This document shows, piece by piece, positions 631-10,599 of a stretch of DNA of 49,158 bases. Source of the DNA: Candidatus Thorarchaeota archaeon (GTDB taxonomy: Archaea; Asgardarchaeota; Thorarchaeia; Thorarchaeales; Thorarchaeaceae); assembly GCA_016839605.1 (NCBI GenBank), contig JAEOTX010000096.1, positions 1 through 49,158 of the forward strand, read 5' to 3'. Each line of letters starts with the position of its first letter. Within the stretch, counting starts at the first letter, position 1. Both the position numbers and the translations under genes were made by a program. The notes below the pieces were generated by a model. It searched no databases and was not told the DNA's origin. It worked only from the letters and a program-made list of their open reading frames with translations.

Positions 631-715
631 AGAGAAAGGATGGAAGGAGCGCGACCAACGCACTCTTGCGGTGTGTCACACCCAGCCCATTTCATTTGAG
701 GTCGTGCCTTCATTC
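631..715 (-). repeat. Structured repeat, copy 1 (downstream of nucleotidyltransferase gene)
   Basis: An 85-base element that aligns with positions 1496-1583 at roughly 85% identity by hand count, with three one- or two-base gaps. It has an outer stem (GGATG(G)AAGG with CCTTCATTC) and hairpins at GCGCGaccaaCGCAC and GGTGT-gtc-ACACC. Read on the minus strand, the TGA of its GAATGAAGG end is the stop codon of the nucleotidyltransferase gene. It is followed on that strand by the T-rich tract CCTTTCTCTTT, also seen after copy 2. The 12-bp helix that makes copy 2 SECIS-like is broken here by several mismatches, so this looks like a decayed relative. Confidence 0.75.
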
Positions 716-1276
716 TCGGTTCTTTATCTTGGCAGTAGATTCTTTCAAGAATCTCTTCCAATCATCAAGAATTTTCAACTTCTTGCACGTCGATTCGATA
801 TACGCAATATCAAGTTGTGGTTGTCTGCGAGAGAGAATGCCCAGCGCATCTCGAAGATCTTGTTCACCATGAAAAAGGATCTTGTTGATTAACGTGTCTT
901 CAGCTGTACCAAGTTTGATAGTTGTATTGAACAGCTCTATTGCAATTGCACGATCCAGAGTCATTCTGTCGAATTGGGAATTCACACCCTGAATGTCAAG
1001 CCTAAGGAGACTATCAGCAAAGAATATGGTGCTGTGTGATTTCTCTCTCAATGCGACCCTCAAATCCTCAACATTTGCATCAAACCCTTTCGAGTTAAGG
1101 AATTCGACGAAACCAGGAATCTCATCATCATTGCTTTGAATTATCAAATCAATATCTACTGTAGTCCGAGGAACACCGTGATACATCACTGCAACACCTC
1201 CTACCACAACGTAATCAATTTCACTTTCATTTAGATAAGAACATAATATTCGCAGAATCTCCGGGAACTCTTCCAT
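710..1276 (-). CDS. Nucleotidyltransferase-fold protein (MNT/AbiEii-like)
   Basis: About 188 residues. The N-terminal third carries the nucleotidyltransferase signature GGVAVMYHGVPRTT followed by VDIDLII, with the paired acidic residues (DID) that bind metal. A later LDIQGV strand could supply the third acidic residue. The family includes MNT- and AbiEii-type antitoxin/toxin and kanamycin-type enzymes; the substrate is not predictable. No HEPN or AbiEi partner lies beside it, so a toxin-antitoxin role is unsupported. I chose the ATG at 1276 because AGGTGG lies eight bases upstream; a GTG at 1288 is the alternative. The stop codon TGA is part of the structured repeat at 631-715. Confidence 0.7.
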   Translation of the reverse strand: MEEFPEILRILCSYLNESEIDYVVVGGVAVMYHGVPRTTVDIDLIIQSNDDEIPGFVEFLNSKGFDANVEDLRVALREKSHSTIFFADSLLRLDIQGVNSQFDRMTLDRAIAIELFNTTIKLGTAEDTLINKILFHGEQDLRDALGILSRRQPQLDIAYIESTCKKLKILDDWKRFLKESTAKIKNRE

Positions 1277-1504: not shown

Positions 1505-1583
1505 ATGGAAGGAGGTGCGACCAACGCACCCTTGCGGGGTGTGTCAGACCCGGCCCGTTTCGTTTACGGCCGTGCCTTCATCC
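1496..1583 (-). repeat. Structured repeat, copy 2 (3' end of vhuU)
   Basis: An 88-base element whose ends pair perfectly apart from one bulge (GGATG(G)AAGG with CCTTCATCC). It contains the hairpin GTGCG-accaa-CGCAC and a GC-rich stem built on GGCC. On the minus strand the stop codon of the vhuU peptide (1578-1580) lies inside its first arm. The 3' hairpin pairs U-A in this copy and U.G in copy 1 when read on the minus strand, which favours a minus-strand RNA. The outer stem, however, pairs better on the plus strand in copy 1. Part of this element forms the SECIS candidate described separately. Confidence 0.8.
1543..1581 (-). promoter_or_regulatory. Candidate SECIS element for selenocysteine insertion in vhuU
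   Basis: Read on the minus strand this hairpin starts with AUGA (1581-1578), followed by the arm AGGCACGGCCGU (1577-1566). An apical loop AAACGAA (1565-1559), the return arm (1558-1546) and GAC (1545-1543) complete it. The arms form about twelve pairs with one A.G mismatch and one bulged G. At the base, the GA of AUGA faces the GA of GAC, allowing the tandem sheared G.A pairs of a kink-turn. AUGA, an 11-12 bp helix and an AA apical motif define eukaryotic SECIS elements; archaeal SECIS elements normally lie in the 3' region, as here. The Sec codon is about 95 bases upstream. The classical Methanococcus GAA/A internal loop was not found. Fold and placement are seen; function is inferred. Confidence 0.55.
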
Positions 1584-1742
1584 GCCGCCGGTCACTAGCT
1601 CCTTCCTGACTATCTCGCGACACTCCCCGTCATCGTCTTCCTCAACGACGACGAAATGAGCGCCGCATGATAGTCAGCAGTCGTAACACCGCACAACCAT
1701 CTCGATGAGGTTGAGCAGTCCTTCCGGTATTTCTTCCGTCAT
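1578..1742 (-). CDS. vhuU: Selenocysteine-containing hydrogenase large-subunit C-terminal peptide (VhuU-like)
   Basis: This 54-residue gene is invisible to normal ORF calling because codon 23 is TGA (1674-1676). Read through as selenocysteine (U), residues 9-29 give LLNLIEMVVRCYDCULSCGAH. This matches the end of Vhu/Mvh [NiFe]-hydrogenase large subunits, whose last two nickel ligands sit in D-P-C-x-x-C-x-x-H. Here D21, U23, C26 and H29 are present and the usual proline is Cys22. The preceding vhuA ends before this motif, so the two genes together make one complete subunit, as in the split Methanococcus VhuA/VhuU. The 25-residue tail after His29 may be removed by a maturation protease. ATG at 1742 lies 11 bases after the vhuA stop. 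Other genes here end in TGA, so TGA is not generally reassigned. The motif is direct evidence; Sec insertion is inference. Confidence 0.85.
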
Positions 1743-1753
1743 GTTTTACACCA

Positions 1754-3070
1754 TTATCTTTTGACCATAGGCTCAGGAAGAGTTAGACTTTCATGAGCCT
1801 TGTCCTCAAATATTTGTTTGGCTGCGACCATGAGAGACTTCTCTATGCCCGCAATGTTGTTGTTAGTAGCAACGACTAGGTTTGCCTTGGTGAGCATCCC
1901 CTTGTCATCTGAGATGTAGTTGTGTAGCAGAATGCCTCTGGGGGCTTCCACGATGCCTACTCCATCTCCAGCTTTGGGTTCGACATCTGAGAGTTTCACA
2001 TCTGTACTGCAAATGTCTGGATCTTTGAGCAGTGTTGCACACCATTCAAACGCTTGTACCAACTCCACAATTCGTGCATAGTGGTAAGCGAATGTATGAT
2101 GAGAGGGTCGACCTACTAGCTCACGCATCTCCGTGAGAGCTGCATCAGCCAAAGGTGTAGCCATCTTCTCATTGACATTGCATCTTGCCAATGTGTTTGC
2201 TCTCCAGACACCCTCTGGATAGCCAGCAGGTTTGTAGTACATATGAGTAGCATAGCTATGCTTTGCTACATGTTCACCGTAGTACTTGGTGTAGTCCTTC
2301 GGTTCAAAGTCTGCAACTATTTTGCCATCTGGCTCTTGGACACGAACTGTGCCGTCGTAGATATCAAGCACACCTTCGTTTGAGAGTCCAATGTAATATG
2401 TCGGGACCACAGCGACTTTTGTGATAACATCCAGATAGTCTGTTACGACCTTCTTTGCCAAGTCCACTGTGTTTAGCGTCAGTTGCTGAATCTCCTCAAG
2501 TCGCCCTATGAAGAAATCGCGGTCTTCTTCCTTCAATGAAGTAAGCATACCTCCAGGAATTCCAGTAGTTGGATGTACAGCCTTCGCACCAATGACTCTG
2601 ATTAACTCCTGACCAAACTCCATCATCTTGATGGCCTGCACAGCCACGTCAGGTAGGTCTCTTAACACAGCTGCGACATTTCTATCAGCAGGATTTGCAA
2701 AAGGCCCGTAAACGAAGTCAGGTGCAGCTAGAGCGTAGAAGTGGATGGCGTGTGAGGAATACTGCTTCGCCTCAATCATCAGACGTCTCAGCTTGATCGC
2801 TGCAGGAGGTGGAGTCACATCCCAGGCTGCCTCAACAGCCTTGATGGATGCCAGATGATGAGGGATCGGACAGATACCACAAATCCTTGGAGCGATCCTT
2901 GGAGCTTCCTCCATGGGACGCCCTTCAAGGAATTTCTCAAAGAACCTTGTGCTATTCACATTGAACTGCACATCTTTGACCTTACCGTCCTTGCCCAATT
3001 TGATTGTCAATGAGCCATGACCCTCTAAGCGGGTCACAGGATCAACACGAATTACTTTCTCTTCACTCAT
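1754..3070 (-). CDS. vhuA: F420-non-reducing [NiFe]-hydrogenase large subunit, split form (VhuA/MvhA)
   Basis: 438 residues. It has the N-terminal VDPVTRLEGHG motif (Glu16 is the usual proton-transfer residue) and the first nickel-binding motif RICGICPIPHH at 62-72, where Cys64 and Cys67 are the nickel ligands. The C-terminal DPCxxCxxH motif present in whole large subunits is absent: the protein ends in LPEPMVKR. The missing piece is encoded by the peptide gene that starts 11 bases downstream, so the product should work only as a heterodimer with it. This is the catalytic subunit that oxidises H2 and passes electrons to VhuG, then VhuD and HdrA. It starts inside the vhuG stop codon (3067-3070 overlap). 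It is probably cytoplasmic, as no signal peptide is seen. Confidence 0.95.
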   Translation of the reverse strand: MSEEKVIRVDPVTRLEGHGSLTIKLGKDGKVKDVQFNVNSTRFFEKFLEGRPMEEAPRIAPRICGICPIPHHLASIKAVEAAWDVTPPPAAIKLRRLMIEAKQYSSHAIHFYALAAPDFVYGPFANPADRNVAAVLRDLPDVAVQAIKMMEFGQELIRVIGAKAVHPTTGIPGGMLTSLKEEDRDFFIGRLEEIQQLTLNTVDLAKKVVTDYLDVITKVAVVPTYYIGLSNEGVLDIYDGTVRVQEPDGKIVADFEPKDYTKYYGEHVAKHSYATHMYYKPAGYPEGVWRANTLARCNVNEKMATPLADAALTEMRELVGRPSHHTFAYHYARIVELVQAFEWCATLLKDPDICSTDVKLSDVEPKAGDGVGIVEAPRGILLHNYISDDKGMLTKANLVVATNNNIAGIEKSLMVAAKQIFEDKAHESLTLPEPMVKR

Positions 3071-3990
3071 TTCTCCTTCGCCTCCTCACGCTTGATTCTC
3101 ATTCGCCCAAGGTGACTAGTAGGATAGTCGAATCTCCAGAAGGTCCCGAGCGGGTCCTTCACCTCTTCCACTATCTTTTCGGGTTCCATCGGTGCATATG
3201 ATCCCAGCATCGAGATAGATGCTGCACCATGGTCCTGTGTAATCGGGGGTGGTGGACCAAAGCAGCCACGACAAGTGGAACCCATATTCACACACTGACC
3301 TTCACATAGACCCCAAGTTGAAGAGCCCACACAGATGTAACCTTGTTCGAGTAAGCATCTGTCTGGGTCCGCAATCCCTTGATATGGTCGCAGAACCTCT
3401 TCGATGGGTGTGTCCTTCTTTTCTCGGTCGCAGTAGTGACACACGGTGTGTGGTGGTAAATCAATAGGTTGACCTGATAGAAGTGCACTCACTGCTGTGT
3501 AGATAAGATCAGGGGTCGGTGGACAGCCGGGGAGGTAGATGTCAATGTCTACAAAGTCCGAGTTTGGTTTTACTACGGATGCAATTCCTGGAAGATTCTC
3601 ACTTGGAACCTCACCGCCTTCCACCGTCTTGTTGTTTCTGAATTTGACATCATAGCACTCTTCAATATCAGAGAAGTTAGCCAGTCCTGGAATACCTCCA
3701 AAACACGAGCATGAACCGAAAGCAATCAGAATCTGACACTTTTCACGCATCAGTTTTAGGAGATGAATATCCTCCTCGGTCCTGGCCATTCCTTCAAAGA
3801 AGCCTACCACTATCGACTTGTCCTCATAGCTCTCTAGGTGATGGAGCTTGAAGTCAGCCACAGCCTGCCAGTACTTTATCTCAATTGCTGGTAGTACTTC
3901 TGCGAGTCGGAGATGTATATCCACCAGACTCTGGAAGCAACCCCAGCAGCTTGACCCCTGGCCCATTGCGACTGGAACTGGATCAGCCAT
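3067..3990 (-). CDS. vhuG: F420-non-reducing hydrogenase small (FeS) subunit, VhuG/MvhG
   Basis: 307 residues of the [NiFe]-hydrogenase small-subunit family. Cluster-binding motifs in order are GQGSSCWGC (Cys15, Cys18), FGSCSCFGGIPG, YLPGCPPTPDLI, and a Cys-rich C-terminal third with CHYC, YICVGSSTWGLCEGQC and STCRGCFGPPPP. These would hold three iron-sulfur clusters that wire the nickel site to VhuD. There is no twin-arginine signal, in keeping with a cytoplasmic Mvh/Vhu enzyme. It sits two bases after the small winged-helix gene and overlaps vhuA by four bases, so translation is probably coupled. Confidence 0.95.
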   Translation of the reverse strand: MADPVPVAMGQGSSCWGCFQSLVDIHLRLAEVLPAIEIKYWQAVADFKLHHLESYEDKSIVVGFFEGMARTEEDIHLLKLMREKCQILIAFGSCSCFGGIPGLANFSDIEECYDVKFRNNKTVEGGEVPSENLPGIASVVKPNSDFVDIDIYLPGCPPTPDLIYTAVSALLSGQPIDLPPHTVCHYCDREKKDTPIEEVLRPYQGIADPDRCLLEQGYICVGSSTWGLCEGQCVNMGSTCRGCFGPPPPITQDHGAASISMLGSYAPMEPEKIVEEVKDPLGTFWRFDYPTSHLGRMRIKREEAKEK

Positions 3991-3992
3991 CT

Positions 3993-4226
3993 TTAGACCT
4001 CCCTCAGTTTGAAGACGAGCTCATGATGCTCCTCTCCGGCGATCTCTACATCGCCCCATCGAAGAAGGCCCAGAAGATTCCACATGAGCATCTTCTTGTC
4101 CATCTCTGTCTTTTCACCGATTACGCTGACACTGGCTGGGCCTTCCTTGAGCGAATCAAGGATGGATTTTCGCTGCCGTGTCACATCAGCATAGTTCTGG
4201 TCAAAGTACGTCGTGAACTCTGTCAT
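3993..4226 (-). CDS. Small winged-helix-like protein of the Vhu/Hdr operon
   Basis: About 77 residues. The central part is helix-turn-helix-like (RKSILDSLKEGPASVSVIGE, then a recognition-type helix around KMLMWNLLGLLRW). It ends in a strand-rich wing containing VEIAGEEHHELVFKL. It is a paralogue of the protein at 14716-15063, which shares the pattern (L/M)WNLL..(M/L)(K/R)W..VEIAGE. Both copies sit among hdr/mvh genes. I chose the ATG at 4226 because it overlaps the mvhD stop as ATGA. It could be a DNA-binding regulator or a small structural subunit; the tight position between mvhD and vhuG suggests it is needed with the complex. I do not recognise a named family. Confidence 0.7.
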   Translation of the reverse strand: MTEFTTYFDQNYADVTRQRKSILDSLKEGPASVSVIGEKTEMDKKMLMWNLLGLLRWGDVEIAGEEHHELVFKLREV

Positions 4227-4663
4227 ACCCACGACCTCCCTATTGGACCAACTTCTTTCACTTGTTCTATCAACTTCGTCACTCCGTCTGCGAATATCTG
4301 GGCCTCAGAGGCACTCGCCCATTGAAGTCGAATTCGCCTCGGATCGATACCAGCTTGCTTGACTGCCTCCGCCATCACTGCCCATCTTGCTCGTAGTTTG
4401 AGATTGCCTGATGTGTAATGACAGTCTCCAGGATGACATCCAGATACCAGCACGCCATCAGCGCCTTGATCTAGGGCACTCAGGATGAACTCTGTGTCTA
4501 TCCGGCCTGTGCAGTTCACCCGGATGATACGAGCGTTTGGCGGATATTGGATCCTGCTCGTTCCAGCCAAGTCGGCTCCGGCATAGGAACACCAATTGCA
4601 GCAAAATGCGACAATTCGAGGTTCCCATTCAGAATCGGTTTTTGCTTTTGATGAAGTAGTCAT
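4223..4663 (-). CDS. mvhD: Hydrogenase-Hdr linker subunit MvhD/VhuD
   Basis: 146 residues of the MvhD [2Fe-2S] protein family, which carries electrons from the hydrogenase small subunit to HdrA. Conserved cysteines are in FCCNWCSYAGADLAG (Cys21, 22, 25), VNCTGRI (Cys51), and SGCHPGDCHY (Cys76, Cys81). All are cysteine here, although some archaeal VhuD proteins carry selenocysteine. It starts as TAATG on the hdrA stop. A paralogue with a basic tail lies at 16400-16924. Confidence 0.93.
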   Translation of the reverse strand: MTTSSKAKTDSEWEPRIVAFCCNWCSYAGADLAGTSRIQYPPNARIIRVNCTGRIDTEFILSALDQGADGVLVSGCHPGDCHYTSGNLKLRARWAVMAEAVKQAGIDPRRIRLQWASASEAQIFADGVTKLIEQVKEVGPIGRSWV

Positions 4664-6429
4664 TAGGCAGCACCTCCATCAGGCTCCATGGGCGCACATA
4701 GATACGCCTCGACCATGGCCAAAATCTGGTCATCAGTCGAGTGTAGCATCATAATGGCAGAACTCGGGCACGCGGCCGCGCAAGTTCCACAGCCATGGCA
4801 CTTAGCCTCGGTGACGAGTGCAACAGGTGGGTCTTGTGACTCATCCATCGCAATCGCATTATACGGACATGCTGAGATGCAAGTGTGGCATGAGGAACAA
4901 AGCTCTGGAATCACTCGTGATACCGTAGCCTCAATCTCCACTTCTCCGCGAGCCATCAAGCCCACTGCCTTTGCAGCGGCTCCGCTAGCGTCAGTTATCG
5001 ACTCCGCAGCACCCTTGGCCGCCTGAGCTCCTCCAGCAATCATCACACCTGCAGTGTGAGTGGTGAGTGGAGCAAGCTTCACGTGCTCAGGGTTGAAGAA
5101 TCCGTCAGGGCTCCTTGTGAGGCTGAATACTTTGGAAACATCCTCAGATCCCTCAGGTGGAACCATTGCTGAAGCTAGAACCAGCAGGTCTGGCTTTAAG
5201 ATAAGATTGTCATCTGAGAAGACATCATGCCAGTGGAGCACAAGCTCCCCATCCACAATCTCCGGTCGTGGTTTCTTCTCTGGTGGAAACTTACTGTAGA
5301 TGACATGCTTGGTTCTGGCCTCTCTCTGAATCTCTTCATGGCCCTTTCCATAAGTCCTGAGGTCTTCGTACAGTATGATAATCTCATCAGCATTGTCCTT
5401 GAGCTCGCCAGCACTCTTTGCAATAGCTGTACAGCAAACTCTAGAGCAGTGCTCATGTCCCTTAACGCCAGATTCACGTGAAGCAACGCAGCCAATATAG
5501 GCGATAGTCTTTGGCGGTTTGCCATTGCTGGGTCTCAAGACATCTCCTTTGAGGCGCATCTCTTCTAGCTCTGCTAAGGTAATAATATCCGGATGGTCTC
5601 CATAGGAGTAGTAGCCATGTGGTTTGAATGGTTGAATCCCTGTCGCCACAATAATCGTGCCCACTCTATGTGTTTTGTCCGCATCATTCGTGGTCACTGT
5701 GACATCGAAATTGCCAATGTAGCCATCAAGATCAGTCACTGTCGATTCTGTCATGACCTCAATCTTGTCGTGAGTTTTGACCCGCTTGATGAGTTGGTCA
5801 GCCAATGTGTTTCCCTGCTCACCTGTTGGATAGACACTTGCTAGCTTCGCGATCTGTCCTCCGAGTTTCTTCTCTCGTTCAACAAGAATTGCATTAAAGC
5901 CGCGGTCTCCAATATCTAGAGCTGCACGCATTCCTGTGACGCCGCCCCCAACAATGAGAGCCGTTGGCTCGACTTCGACACTCTTGACTGGCAAAGACTC
6001 TAGAAGCGCAGCACGAGCAACAGACATCCTAACAAGGTCCTTTGCCTTCTCTGTTGCTTCCTCAGGCTGGCGCATATGGCACCAAGAAACATGTTCTCGG
6101 AGATTGACTTGATCAAAGAGATAGCGGTTTACATCCGCTTCTTCAACTACTCTTCTGAACGTAGGTTCATGCATCCTCGGACTGCAACTAGCAACAACTA
6201 CTCGGTTCAAGCTATGCTCCTTTATGCTGTCCTTGATGAGTTGCTGACCTGAGTCTGCACACATGAACATCGTTGTGGTCGAGAACGCTACGTATGGTAG
6301 GGTCTCAGCCATCTTTGCTACGGCCTCTACATCAACAGTACCTGCGATATTGTGGCCGCACATGCAGACGAATACGCCAATCCTAGGAGCTTCGGCTGCA
6401 GTATCTGTTCCAGTTTCTGCTTCGGTCAC
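4663..6429 (-). CDS. hdrA: HdrA-type electron-bifurcating flavoprotein
   Basis: 588 residues. It has the HdrA N-terminal domain (VCMCGHNIAG, Cys22 and Cys24; SCSPRMHEP; HVSWCHM) and an FAD Rossmann motif LIVGGGVTGMRAALD near 158-172. CSRVCC is at 328-333, and two C-terminal [4Fe-4S] motifs are CSSCHTCISACP (about 511-521) and CHGCGTCAAACP (about 544-554). It lacks the mid-protein ferredoxin insert present in its paralogues here. HdrA holds the bifurcating FAD in MvhADG-HdrABC complexes. The start is GTG at 6429, overlapping the upstream stop as GTGA. Placed directly before mvhD-vhuGAU, it is the likely docking partner of the hydrogenase. Confidence 0.93.
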   Translation of the reverse strand: MTEAETGTDTAAEAPRIGVFVCMCGHNIAGTVDVEAVAKMAETLPYVAFSTTTMFMCADSGQQLIKDSIKEHSLNRVVVASCSPRMHEPTFRRVVEEADVNRYLFDQVNLREHVSWCHMRQPEEATEKAKDLVRMSVARAALLESLPVKSVEVEPTALIVGGGVTGMRAALDIGDRGFNAILVEREKKLGGQIAKLASVYPTGEQGNTLADQLIKRVKTHDKIEVMTESTVTDLDGYIGNFDVTVTTNDADKTHRVGTIIVATGIQPFKPHGYYSYGDHPDIITLAELEEMRLKGDVLRPSNGKPPKTIAYIGCVASRESGVKGHEHCSRVCCTAIAKSAGELKDNADEIIILYEDLRTYGKGHEEIQREARTKHVIYSKFPPEKKPRPEIVDGELVLHWHDVFSDDNLILKPDLLVLASAMVPPEGSEDVSKVFSLTRSPDGFFNPEHVKLAPLTTHTAGVMIAGGAQAAKGAAESITDASGAAAKAVGLMARGEVEIEATVSRVIPELCSSCHTCISACPYNAIAMDESQDPPVALVTEAKCHGCGTCAAACPSSAIMMLHSTDDQILAMVEAYLCAPMEPDGGAA

Positions 6430-9164
6430 TTTACTTCACCTCCCCTTGCGAGGACAATAGTTGCCCTCATTGCTGCTGCACTTCCTGCTGCAACTGAGTC
6501 AGGAATGTCCTTTGGACCATCCGAGCATCCACAGGTGTAGATACCATCTACATCTGCATCAACGGGATACAGCAGCGGGTGTTCAACCTTCACATATCCA
6601 TCATTATCAAGTTCTATACCAACGTCTTCCGCGAGAATCCGCATTCCCAGTGAAGGCTGAATTCCTCCGCTCAGGACAACTAGGTCATGTTCGTTCTGCA
6701 TGAACGTCAAATCCTCAGTGTCCTCGACGCGAATCAAGGATTTCTCATCGTCGGTTTCCACAACTTCAGCAACTCGTCCTCTGACGAATTTGACACCAAA
6801 TCGGGTCTTGGCCATTTCAAAGAACTCTTCAAATCCCTTGCCAAATGCTCTGATGTCAGCGTAGTATACTGTGACATCTACATCAGGATCATGTTCTTTG
6901 GCCATGACAGCGTTTTTGATGCCATACATACAACAGACTCGGCTGCAGGCTGGTACACCTTTGCCAACATCTCTTGCGCCAACGCATTGTATGAATCCGA
7001 TAGACTTCGGTACTTTTCCATCACTCAATCGAACAAGGTGACCTGCTGTTGGACCAGCAGCGTTAATCAGTCTCTCGTACTCCATCGCGGTGATGACATT
7101 TGATTGGGTCTCATATCCAAGACGAGGATACTCCGCGACGTCAAAGAGCTTGTAGCCGGTTGACATTACAATAGCTCCAACATCGAGTTCGATTATCTCA
7201 TCTTGCTGGTTGTGGTCAATTGCTTCACGCTGACATGCCTCAACACACTCCATGCATTCTGAGCACACTGTGCAATTCAGGCATCTACCAGCCTCGGTCA
7301 TAGCTGTTTCGGCATCAAAGCCAGTTTCGACCTCTTTGAAGGTGGTCCTTCTGTTGTAGATCGATATTTTTGGCATTGATGCTCGAGGATGCACACCGAA
7401 GCGCTGTTTCTTGATGTCCTCAGGAATGACCTCGATGAACGTCTCTGGGCGCCCCTCTTTCAGTTCCTCTCCTTGGAGATACCTGTGGATCGACTCTGCA
7501 GCCACATTGCCCTGACCAACGGCTTCAACCACGAGCCCAGGACCTGTCGCCAGATCACCACCCGCAAAGACGTTTTCCATGCTTGTCTGAAGTGTGACTG
7601 GGTCGACCTCTGGAGTTCCCCATTCAGTCATATCTAGCTCCGCATGTGGACCTTTGGGATCAGCACGCTGCCCGATCGCGATGATCATATTCTCGAAGGG
7701 TATCGAGAACTCAGACCCTGGAATTGGTATCGGGCGTCTTCTGCCTGAGTCATCAGGTTCGCCGAGTTTCATCTCTATACATGTGATTCCAACAAGTCTT
7801 CCCTTGGACTCAATGGCTTCTACAGGATTTGTCAAGACCTTCAGTTCAATGCCTTCCTCGACCGCATCCTCAATCTCTTGATGAATGGCTGGCATCTCTG
7901 CACGAGACCTTCGATAGATAATTGTCACTTGCTTGACACCCAATCTCTTTGCGACACGTGCTGCATCTATAGCTGCATTTCCACCGCCGATGACAGCCAC
8001 ATTGTAGCCGAGAGGAACTTTCTCACCACGATTCACCTTATCAAGGAAATCAACTGCGTGATACACTCCAGTTGAGTCCTCACCCTTTATCCTCAGTTTG
8101 GAACTCACAGGAGCACCAGTGCCAAGGAACACAGCCTTGAAGCCTTTATTGAGCAAACTCTTGACAGATGAGATTTCCTTGCCATATTCGATTTTGACAC
8201 CCAAATCCTCTACTATCTTGATCTCGTCAGCTATTACATCTCTAGGCAGTCTGTGTTCAGGTATGCCATATCGAAGTAATCCACCTGCCTCTTCCCGTTT
8301 CTCGAAGACTGTCACTGGGTAGCCTAGTCTGATAAGCTTCTCAGCACAGGCAATACCTGCGGGTCCGGCACCGATAACAGCGACCTTCTCCTTCTTATCA
8401 ATGACAGGGATGTCCCCCTTGTAGCCTCCATGCTCTCGCTCATTATCGTAGAGCCATCGATGGAGGTTACGTATACTGACTGGGTCATCAACAGAGGCTC
8501 TCTCACACTTTTCTTCACAGAGAGCAGGACAGACACGGCCAAGCGAGCCGGGGAATGGGATTGCATCCCTGACCAATTTGAGTGCCTTGTCATTGTCACC
8601 GCTGCGCATCAGAGCAGTGAAGCCCTGAGGATTCACATGTGCTGGACAGTTAGTGTAACAGGGGGCATGGCCTCGCTTGTCAATCGTGTGTATGTTTGGC
8701 GTTGCCTGCGGAAAGGGAATATAGATGGCCTTTCTGAATCCAATCCCTTGATCGAACTCATTTGGAACCTCTATTGGGCATGCTGGCACACAGTCGCCGC
8801 AACCATTGCACTTCTCCTCATCAACATATCGAGCCTTTCTCTTGACCTTGACCTTGAAGTTCCCCGCACTCCCCAGGACCTCCTCGACTTCACTATAGGT
8901 AAGCATCTCGATGTTTGGATGACGCTGTACTTCACTAAGTCGTGGAGTTAGAATACATGCGGAGCAGTCCAAGGTTGGGAATGTCTTATCGATCATGGCC
9001 ATTCGGCCACCAATACTGCTTGATTTCTCCAGTAGATATACCTTGTAATTCTGATCAGCAATATCTAAGGCCGCTTGCATACCTGCGACTCCGCCACCCA
9101 CCACAAGCGCCTTGTTAGACCATTTGCCTTTCGTGGCACTGGTTTTCGGTTTGGCTATGGTCAC
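6426..9164 (-). CDS. Short HdrA with an inserted GltD-type NAD(P)H oxidoreductase domain
   Basis: 912 residues. It begins directly with an HdrA FAD motif (VVGGGVAGMQAALDIA, about 21-36), without the N-terminal HdrA domain. It continues with CSACILTPRLSEV and a ferredoxin motif CNGCGDCVPACPIE. After HTIDKR a roughly 465-residue glutamate-synthase small-subunit (GltD) module is inserted: CYTNCPAHVNPQGF, RVCPALCEEKCERA, the FAD motif VIGAGPAGIACAEKL, and the NAD(P) motif VIGGGNAAIDAARVAKRLG followed by YRRSR. HdrA then resumes with CLNCTVCSECMECVEACQ and CSRVCC. The paralogue at 15063-16403 is the same protein without the insert, which fixes the junctions. GltD modules move electrons between NAD(P)H and flavin/FeS, so this subunit probably links the complex to NAD(P)H. 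Confidence 0.9.
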   Translation of the reverse strand: MTIAKPKTSATKGKWSNKALVVGGGVAGMQAALDIADQNYKVYLLEKSSSIGGRMAMIDKTFPTLDCSACILTPRLSEVQRHPNIEMLTYSEVEEVLGSAGNFKVKVKRKARYVDEEKCNGCGDCVPACPIEVPNEFDQGIGFRKAIYIPFPQATPNIHTIDKRGHAPCYTNCPAHVNPQGFTALMRSGDNDKALKLVRDAIPFPGSLGRVCPALCEEKCERASVDDPVSIRNLHRWLYDNEREHGGYKGDIPVIDKKEKVAVIGAGPAGIACAEKLIRLGYPVTVFEKREEAGGLLRYGIPEHRLPRDVIADEIKIVEDLGVKIEYGKEISSVKSLLNKGFKAVFLGTGAPVSSKLRIKGEDSTGVYHAVDFLDKVNRGEKVPLGYNVAVIGGGNAAIDAARVAKRLGVKQVTIIYRRSRAEMPAIHQEIEDAVEEGIELKVLTNPVEAIESKGRLVGITCIEMKLGEPDDSGRRRPIPIPGSEFSIPFENMIIAIGQRADPKGPHAELDMTEWGTPEVDPVTLQTSMENVFAGGDLATGPGLVVEAVGQGNVAAESIHRYLQGEELKEGRPETFIEVIPEDIKKQRFGVHPRASMPKISIYNRRTTFKEVETGFDAETAMTEAGRCLNCTVCSECMECVEACQREAIDHNQQDEIIELDVGAIVMSTGYKLFDVAEYPRLGYETQSNVITAMEYERLINAAGPTAGHLVRLSDGKVPKSIGFIQCVGARDVGKGVPACSRVCCMYGIKNAVMAKEHDPDVDVTVYYADIRAFGKGFEEFFEMAKTRFGVKFVRGRVAEVVETDDEKSLIRVEDTEDLTFMQNEHDLVVLSGGIQPSLGMRILAEDVGIELDNDGYVKVEHPLLYPVDADVDGIYTCGCSDGPKDIPDSVAAGSAAAMRATIVLARGGEVK

Positions 9165-10075
9165 CTCTTTGCCTCCTGTTCACGGCGGATGACCTTCGAC
9201 TCGATTCTGTGAGCGAATTCGAGCAGGACATCTGGACTAATCTTGTTAAGCGGCATTCCGAGGGTTTCCTCATCTATACCCATGGCGGCCCCCATGAATT
9301 GTGGCAACGTGAGAACTGGAATGCGATCCTTTGGCTCTCCACCTTCACCAAACTGGACTTGTGTTAGCTGAATATTGCAGAAAACGCATGCTGTTACTAT
9401 TCCTTTGGCTCCGGCAGCCTTTACATTCGTAATCTTCTCAGAGCCAATAGCGGTGGCTACTTTCTCATCCATGGCGAGCATTGGTCCTCCACAGCAACGA
9501 ACCTTTCCTGCATAATCAACAGCATCACCACCACAGGCCTCAATGATATCATCGATAGATCTTGGCACCTCAGGATCATCTACTTGGACGATCTCAGCTG
9601 GACGAGTCACATGACATCCATAATGAGCAGCCAGTTTTACACCGTTATACGGTTGTACTATAGCTCGTCTAATCGCATCATAACCCACTTCATCTCGGAG
9701 AATCTGGAGGAGGTGCTTCACCTCGACCTTACCCGTATATTCCAAATCCTCCTCGGCAAGAATTTCATTGACCTCTGCTTTGAGATCAGGTTCAGTGTCC
9801 AGCATGTGCTTCACGTGCTTCAAAGAACCTGAACACGCTCCACAGATTGCAATCACATCTTTCCCAAACCGTTCTGCAATTGCTAGAATGCGTCCGCTCA
9901 TTGCTGCAAATGCGCTCCGATTCAACGATTCAATATATTGAGCACCGCAGCAATTGACATCCTTCATGTGGTGAGCATTCACACCAAGATGCTTCAGGAC
10001 TGCCATCGTGGCAGCTTCATAAGCAGGAAGTCTGACAGGTGTAGTACAGCCTGTATAGACGAAATAGTCTGTCAA
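9161..10075 (-). CDS. hdrB: Heterodisulfide reductase subunit B (HdrB-like)
   Basis: 304 residues with two CCG domains that hold noncubane [4Fe-4S] clusters. The first is VNCCGAQYI with ICGACSGS; the second is YGCH, VRCCGGPML and TACVFCNIQL. In HdrABC these clusters reduce the disulfide CoM-S-S-CoB. No methyl-CoM reductase genes are visible here, so the real acceptor is unknown. It overlaps hdrC by four bases and the next hdrA fusion by four bases. Confidence 0.93.
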   Translation of the reverse strand: MTDYFVYTGCTTPVRLPAYEAATMAVLKHLGVNAHHMKDVNCCGAQYIESLNRSAFAAMSGRILAIAERFGKDVIAICGACSGSLKHVKHMLDTEPDLKAEVNEILAEEDLEYTGKVEVKHLLQILRDEVGYDAIRRAIVQPYNGVKLAAHYGCHVTRPAEIVQVDDPEVPRSIDDIIEACGGDAVDYAGKVRCCGGPMLAMDEKVATAIGSEKITNVKAAGAKGIVTACVFCNIQLTQVQFGEGGEPKDRIPVLTLPQFMGAAMGIDEETLGMPLNKISPDVLLEFAHRIESKVIRREQEAKR

Positions 10076-10599
10076 TCACCTTCACCTCCGGAAAAATACT
10101 TCTTCTTCAATCTGTGAGTGAATTCATTGTCCCAACCCAAGTCGGTGTCAAGGCCTAAATCATCTCTGTCATCTTCGATGAAGTCAGAGTATGCATCGCC
10201 CAGAAGCCATCCATCACTTAGGGCCTTCTCCGCGGTTGATTTGAAAACCTCTGGTATGTGTCCTTCCCTTGTAGCGATATGTCGGACGGCTTGAAAGATT
10301 TCAGCTGGACTGACACCCTCTTGGCATCTTTCTTCGCACAATCTACATGTCATGCAAAGCCAAGGTAAATCGCTTTGCAATACTTCATCTCTCTTTCCAA
10401 TAATGATCTTTTGAATCAGCTGACGAGGACGGTATCTATCTGAAAATGAAGACACCGCACATGAGGCAGTGCATATACCACACTGAATGCATTTGCTGAT
10501 GCCTTCACCACCCGGTTCAGCTTCAATTTCTTTAGCAAAATTGGAAGAAGGAGTATGTTCAATTTCAAGTCCTTTATTGGTCTCTGTTCGAGCACCCAT
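10072..10599 (-). CDS. hdrC: Heterodisulfide reductase subunit C (HdrC-like)
   Basis: 175 residues with two [4Fe-4S] motifs, CIQCGICTASCAVS and CMTCRLCEERCQEG, each in the HdrC spacing. HdrC passes electrons from HdrA to HdrB. It starts at ATG 10599, the first gene after a 322-base gap, and its stop overlaps the hdrB start. The acidic C-terminal region (DFIEDDRDDLGLDTDLGWDN) is not typical of minimal HdrC and may be a contact surface. Confidence 0.92.
   Translation of the reverse strand: MGARTETNKGLEIEHTPSSNFAKEIEAEPGGEGISKCIQCGICTASCAVSSFSDRYRPRQLIQKIIIGKRDEVLQSDLPWLCMTCRLCEERCQEGVSPAEIFQAVRHIATREGHIPEVFKSTAEKALSDGWLLGDAYSDFIEDDRDDLGLDTDLGWDNEFTHRLKKKYFSGGEGD

Follow-up and report, generated by a model that had tools for sequence, protein, structure and literature searches.

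How can a hydrogenase large subunit that lacks its C-terminal nickel motif belong to a working enzyme, and could a short downstream frame interrupted by TGA supply the missing part? The question is raised by the stretch of DNA analysed here (the window, 49,158 nucleotides from a Candidatus Thorarchaeota archaeon), for which a preliminary description, made from the letters alone, had proposed a split VhuA/VhuU hydrogenase of the kind found in Methanococcus, with selenocysteine (Sec) in the nickel motif. The genes concerned are these:

1578-1742, minus strand: vhuU, predicted selenoprotein subunit U, 54 residues with Sec at residue 23, motif D-C-U-L-S-C-G-A-H
1674-1676, minus strand: predicted Sec codon TGA, residue 23, a nickel ligand; kept as TGA by 80 of the 81 distinct copies from Asgards
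1754-3070, minus strand: vhuA, large subunit of a group-3c [NiFe(Se)] hydrogenase, 438 aa; NCBIfam VhuA, E=1.9e-144
3067-3990, minus strand: vhuG, hydrogenase small subunit; NCBIfam VhuG, E=2.3e-68
4223-4663, minus strand: vhuD/mvhD, Cys form without in-frame TGA; Pfam FlpD, E=8.8e-52
4663-6429, minus strand: hdrA-like gene, for the subunit joining the hydrogenase to the Hdr complex; NCBIfam HdrA2, E=3.6e-162
9161-10599, minus strand: hdrB (9161-10075) and hdrC (10072-10599), NCBIfam CoB-CoM heterodisulfide reductase subunits B and C, both matches under the curated cut-off

That vhuA ends without the nickel motif was borne out. In an NCBIfam profile search VhuA aligns to NF041785 over residues 7-421 and carries the N-terminal RICGIC motif, but its C-terminal end (...KQIFEDKAHESLTLPEPMVKR, followed by the stop) holds neither a CxxC nor a nickel motif; the nearest solved structure is 9sfi chain g. 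The near relatives of vhuA all come from Candidatus Thorarchaeota, and vhuG, vhuD and the Hdr genes lie upstream of and adjacent to vhuA-vhuU, as the VhuU split-hydrogenase family expects. The 54-codon frame proposed as the missing part is likewise present, on the minus strand: its ATG is at 1742, 11 nt past the end of vhuA, it has a single internal in-frame TGA, and its true stop is the TGA at 1580-1578. The translation, MTEEIPEGLLNLIEMVVRCYDCULSCGAHFVVVEEDDDGECREIVRKELVTGGG, matches NCBIfam VhuU (NF041786) with E=2.9e-13 and 49.4 bits, to be read against a curated cut-off of 70 bits that is reached by none of the 47 genomes of the class.

Among Thor- and Lokiarchaeal loci with readable downstream sequence, a vhuU frame is found 3' of vhuA, directly or up to ~1.5 kb on, in nearly all, the exceptions being six Thorarchaeal vhuA paralogues. 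At the Sec codon, TGA occurs in 37 distinct copies from Thorarchaeia and in 43 from other Asgards, and TGT in one Thorarchaeal paralogue; in all but a few copies the end of the frame lies 84 nt from the TGA, a distance that grows to 96 nt where, as here, 12 nt have been inserted in frame. When codons were compared among 31 distinct copies from Thorarchaeia, changes on either side of the TGA proved mainly synonymous, and the frame past it is also conserved in Lokiarchaeia and Jordarchaeia. The random stops and decay in close relatives that the preliminary description had named as fatal to its reading are thus not seen; to judge from the substitutions, the frame is under purifying selection before and after the TGA. 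Readings of vhuU as a pseudogene or as the product of a frameshift were rejected on the conservation of the 31 Thorarchaeal copies. The six exceptional paralogues (L071-L075 and L127) are second vhuA copies with no vhuU nearby. Four of the MAGs concerned (those of L073, L074, L075 and L127) also hold a vhuA-vhuU locus, and vhuU may therefore serve such paralogues in trans, or the paralogues may play another role.

The genome also encodes the means to insert Sec. A single contig (C181) of the window's MAG (3.08 Mb, 80% complete) carries tRNA-Sec (anticodon TCA) together with EFSec, SepSecS and PSTK, the PSTK match being under its curated cut-off although the gene sits within this Sec cluster. 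In the SelD of the MAG, the active-site motif HGUSCK contains an in-frame TGA. Every component for which a search had been proposed was therefore found, which answers the objection that Sec machinery might be missing.

A Sec/Cys exchange among relatives, also proposed as a check, was found once. One Thorarchaeal genome (G005) has, besides two Sec copies of vhuU, a paralogue directly adjoining its own vhuA (L132, 2283-2465) with TGT at the Sec position and the motif D-C-C-L-S-C-S-A-F. The SECIS model described below finds no match in it, and the AUGA is changed to UUGA; on these characters the paralogue is a natural Sec/Cys exchange accompanied by SECIS loss. Because the motif histidine is changed too, to Phe, its activity is uncertain.

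The signal that would direct Sec insertion overlaps the end of the gene:

1529-1588, minus strand: SECIS, eukaryote-like type I, from a 35-locus alignment and covariation; model match 74 bits

Its core AUGA occupies 1581-1578, the UGA being the vhuU stop codon, and its core GA 1545-1544; the upper stem has 10 positions (1577-1568 with 1555-1546) and the apical loop is GUAAACGAAACG (1567-1556). AUGA, GA and the AA of the apical loop do not vary across the 35 Thorarchaeal loci, and standard pairs fill 88.4% of the pair cells, as against 23-51% for slid partners. Two-sided changes number 41, compared with 14.7 in shuffles, and 11 of the 14 pairs have changed on both sides. Covariation was used here in place of single-sequence folding, which is without significance for this region (z -0.89); an Rfam scan of the vhuU/SECIS region gave zero matches. 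Two Lokiarchaeal vhuU copies end in TAG and still have AUGA just past it, so that AUGA is retained for the RNA and not for its stop function alone. According to Huang 2024 (PMC11227280), the frhA SECIS of Thorarchaeia has an AUGA_GA core and a G[U/G]AAA loop, and the UGA stop in Lokiarchaeia is cited there as often overlapping the SECIS AUGA. A lokiarchaeal vhuU SECIS failed to function in Methanococcus maripaludis (PMC11881835), and the trans factors on which an Asgard SECIS depends are therefore unproven. In the Harpocratesius locus (L114), vhuU retains the Sec TGA, its stop is TAA, and no SECIS is recognisable at the usual place.

The window holds a further copy of the element:

661-717, minus strand: decayed second SECIS copy with several broken pairs, model match 22 bits; wider repeat at 612-713 (84% repeat)

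This copy sits 3' of an unrelated nucleotidyltransferase-like gene that terminates at the UGA of the copied core, and a third hairpin-like repeat at 3-60 of the window resembles the sequence 3' of the SECIS copies (GGATAGAAGGAGCGCGACCAGCGC). Copying of the SECIS throughout the genome was considered and rejected, there being two copies only, both within this window. Another locus (L055, 4015-5465) has three intact SECIS copies; both additional copies carry a fragment of the vhuU coding tail, and unrelated sequence lies in between.

Two features that the preliminary description had regarded as oddities, the Cys-Sec pair and the acidic tail, prove to be normal for this protein. Every Sec-containing Asgard copy of VhuU has D-C-U, the Cys paralogue D-C-C, and other Thorarchaeal hydrogenases DPC. 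The Asp-Pro that usually precedes the ligand in the family (DPU/DPC), the proline not being itself a ligand, is absent from Asgard VhuU; since D-C-U is universal there, it is a clade-wide substitution and reflects neither damage nor a lost ligand. Past the motif histidine the tail has 25 residues here, compared with 21 in most relatives, four extra acidic residues having been inserted. Group-3 hydrogenases usually mature via cleavage past the motif histidine, and the acidic tail is probably a C-terminal extension that would be cleaved off, bearing a 4-residue insertion. No HycI-type protease (PF01750) was found in the window's MAG, which is 80% complete; 44 of 47 genomes of the class have one, including 13 of 13 good ones.

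A second structure lies within the coding region, at the Sec codon itself:

1606-1677, minus strand: coding-region hairpin, arms 1677-1658 and 1625-1606, an inverted repeat from a blind repeat search

In the mRNA its left arm begins at the Sec codon and its inner helix ~6 nt past the UGA, so that part of the hairpin may stand while the UGA is decoded; the outer helix, which contains the UGA, cannot. Support for it comes from related Thorarchaeal sequences and the one Cys paralogue. Against a null in which codons were resampled synonymously with GC matched, 33 Thorarchaeal sequences form on average 16.4 of 18 pairs compared with 11.4 (sd 0.29, maximum 11.9 in 60 sets), and the folding (MFE) z averages -3.35, with 33/33 below -2; under the same null, 120 control windows from vhuA give a mean z of -0.37 (sd 1.05), none reaching -3.35 or below. 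In this window the 12-nt insertion lengthens the stem, and none of 300 GC-matched synonymous null sequences is as stable as the region's MFE of -52.1 kcal/mol. When the partner arm is slid, the paired fraction falls from 91% to 32-47%. Both sides have changed in three pairs, each time through an amino-acid replacement on one arm and a silent codon change on the opposite arm (GCC/GCT with GGG, GGT with GAT/GAC, TGT with CAC). In the outer helix pairs are broken in up to 8 of the 33 sequences, and RNAalifold favours a different outer pairing. The Cys paralogue forms 10 of the 18 pairs (z +0.85), selD of the window's genome has no hairpin (z 0.41), and in Lokiarchaeia no consensus hairpin was found, any signal there being weak (mean z -1.24). 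We consider it very probable that the Thorarchaeal hairpin is maintained by selection.

These observations bear on how the TGA should be read. It might be a true stop, with vhuU a decaying fragment and the hydrogenase inactive, and a standard gene caller would indeed end the frame there; purifying selection beyond the TGA in the 31 Thorarchaeal sequences, conservation of the same stretch in Lokiarchaeia and Jordarchaeia, and a TGA unchanged in 80 of 81 copies make this scarcely credible. A near-cognate tRNA (Cys, Trp or Arg) could instead read the UGA without Sec, helped by a UGA-CUA context and the hairpin. Of 80 copies, 71 have CTA immediately 3' of the Sec TGA, a codon that accounts for ~10% of Leu codons in vhuA, and eukaryotes are known to read through UGA in a UGA-CUA context, which counts for readthrough of this kind. 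So does the ability of hairpins of the Sec-redefinition element (SRE) type to support Sec-independent readthrough (PMC4561486). In Thorarchaeia, however, the third base of CUA pairs within the hairpin, which can account for the codon choice there, and the context as such is inseparable from pairing; CUA is also kept in Lokiarchaeia, which lack the Thorarchaeal hairpin. With a complete Sec machinery, a covarying SECIS, and the loss of SECIS and hairpin together in the Cys paralogue, near-cognate readthrough seems very improbable, and Sec at the TGA remains the reading we adopt.

For the hairpin there are two further possibilities. It would be a mere by-product of amino-acid sequence and GC content if the high conservation of the protein sufficed to produce it, and GC-rich single-sequence folds are readily overinterpreted; the failure of the synonymous null, the vhuA windows and the slid-partner control to reproduce it, together with amino-acid changes on one arm matched by silent ones on the other, makes this improbable. 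More plausible, though still doubtful, is a real hairpin that acts on stability or translation of the operon mRNA and not on Sec decoding, given that position alone is no proof of function and that Lokiarchaeal vhuU does without a comparable structure. Against this, the hairpin has its start at the Sec codon, the Cys paralogue lacks it, and the same position, next to the Sec codon, serves recoding in bacteria and in the Sec-redefinition elements of eukaryotes (PMC8704476). On balance we lean, by this analogy, towards an action on Sec decoding resembling Sec redefinition. The fuller proposal, that Thorarchaeal vhuU mRNAs would carry two recoding signals, a stop-codon SECIS and a Sec-codon hairpin working like an SRE or a bacterial SECIS, has in our estimate an even chance of being right.

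Taken as a whole, the locus is best explained, with a probability of roughly 0.93, by a functional VhuU selenoprotein in which SECIS-directed Sec would complete a split Ni-Fe site, the hairpin probably aiding recoding. The family match, the Sec machinery, the conserved TGA, the Cys paralogue and the covarying SECIS all support the split first proposed. The gene, its motif and conservation, the machinery, the SECIS, and the existence and selection of the hairpin are read from sequence. Sec-tRNA(Sec) would be made via SerRS, PSTK and SepSecS, with selenophosphate from the Sec-containing SelD, and EFSec would bring it to the UGA at 1676-1674, directed by a SECIS whose core stop codon lies 96 nt on. 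In Thorarchaeia the coding-region hairpin would be a second cis element, probably favouring recoding over termination as eukaryotic SREs do. VhuU would then dock on VhuA, giving Sec23 and Cys26 to the Ni-Fe site, to which VhuA would give its two N-terminal cysteines; a maturation protease would probably cut the VhuU tail past His29, and the complex would pass electrons between H2, VhuD and HdrABC. Sec insertion itself, assembly, tail cleavage, the direction of electron flow and the role of the hairpin are what we infer in this scheme. By its genes the Thorarchaeal group-3c hydrogenase would be an active-type [NiFeSe] enzyme, which ordinary annotation truncates.

We know of no earlier archaeal example of such a coding-region element. 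Mariotti 2016 reportedly treats the Asgard selenoprotein genes frhA, mvhA and vhuU and their SECIS; in the literature searched, outside of which that paper lies, no element of the Sec-redefinition type is described in archaea. VhuU selenoproteins across Sec-using Asgards, Thorarchaeia included, are covered in the portion of Huang 2024 available (PMC11227280), in which neither a Sec-codon hairpin nor a universal D-C-U is mentioned. The gene is therefore of an already known kind, a VhuU selenoprotein in a surveyed clade; what the analysis adds, as far as the literature searched shows, are the hairpin in the coding region and the D-C-U motif shared throughout the clade. If its proposed role is true, the hairpin would be the first such element known to us in archaea, and an Asgard lineage would then possess both components of the eukaryotic arrangement. 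According to a proposal by Mariotti and colleagues (PMC4561486), bacterial SECIS hairpins gave rise to the SREs of eukaryotes, and an Asgard hairpin in one gene with a eukaryote-like SECIS makes that proposal testable. The hairpin also bears on how archaeal ribosomes locate Sec UGAs without SBP2, the lokiarchaeal vhuU SECIS alone having failed in the methanogen.

Among known systems the closest is the methanococcal VhuA/VhuU pair, an F420-non-reducing [NiFeSe] hydrogenase (NF041785/NF041786) represented in the solved entries 9sfi and 9t1s. The split just before the C-terminal nickel motif is the same, as are a short VhuU with Sec as the first ligand of UxxCxxH, the neighbouring vhuG and vhuD, and the Hdr partner. 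The Asgard protein differs in having D-C-U where the methanogen chain in 9sfi has D-P-X (X being the Sec position), and the Asgard gene in a SECIS that is eukaryote-like and overlaps the stop codon, to which the Thorarchaeal genes add the coding-region hairpin. With the Asgard frhA/mvhA/vhuU selenoproteins, as described in PMC11227280, it shares gene, clade and a type I AUGA_GA SECIS with a G[U/G]AAA loop. Like the SREs of eukaryotic genes such as SELENON, the Thorarchaeal hairpin would be a coding stem-loop beside the Sec UGA combined with a 3' SECIS; the likeness is one of position, and the full Thorarchaeal stem begins at the UGA and is longer. Its position also recalls the bacterial SECIS, a coding-sequence hairpin located at the Sec UGA or immediately 3' of it; Thorarchaeal vhuU differs in its separate 3' SECIS and in Sec synthesis genes of archaeal type.
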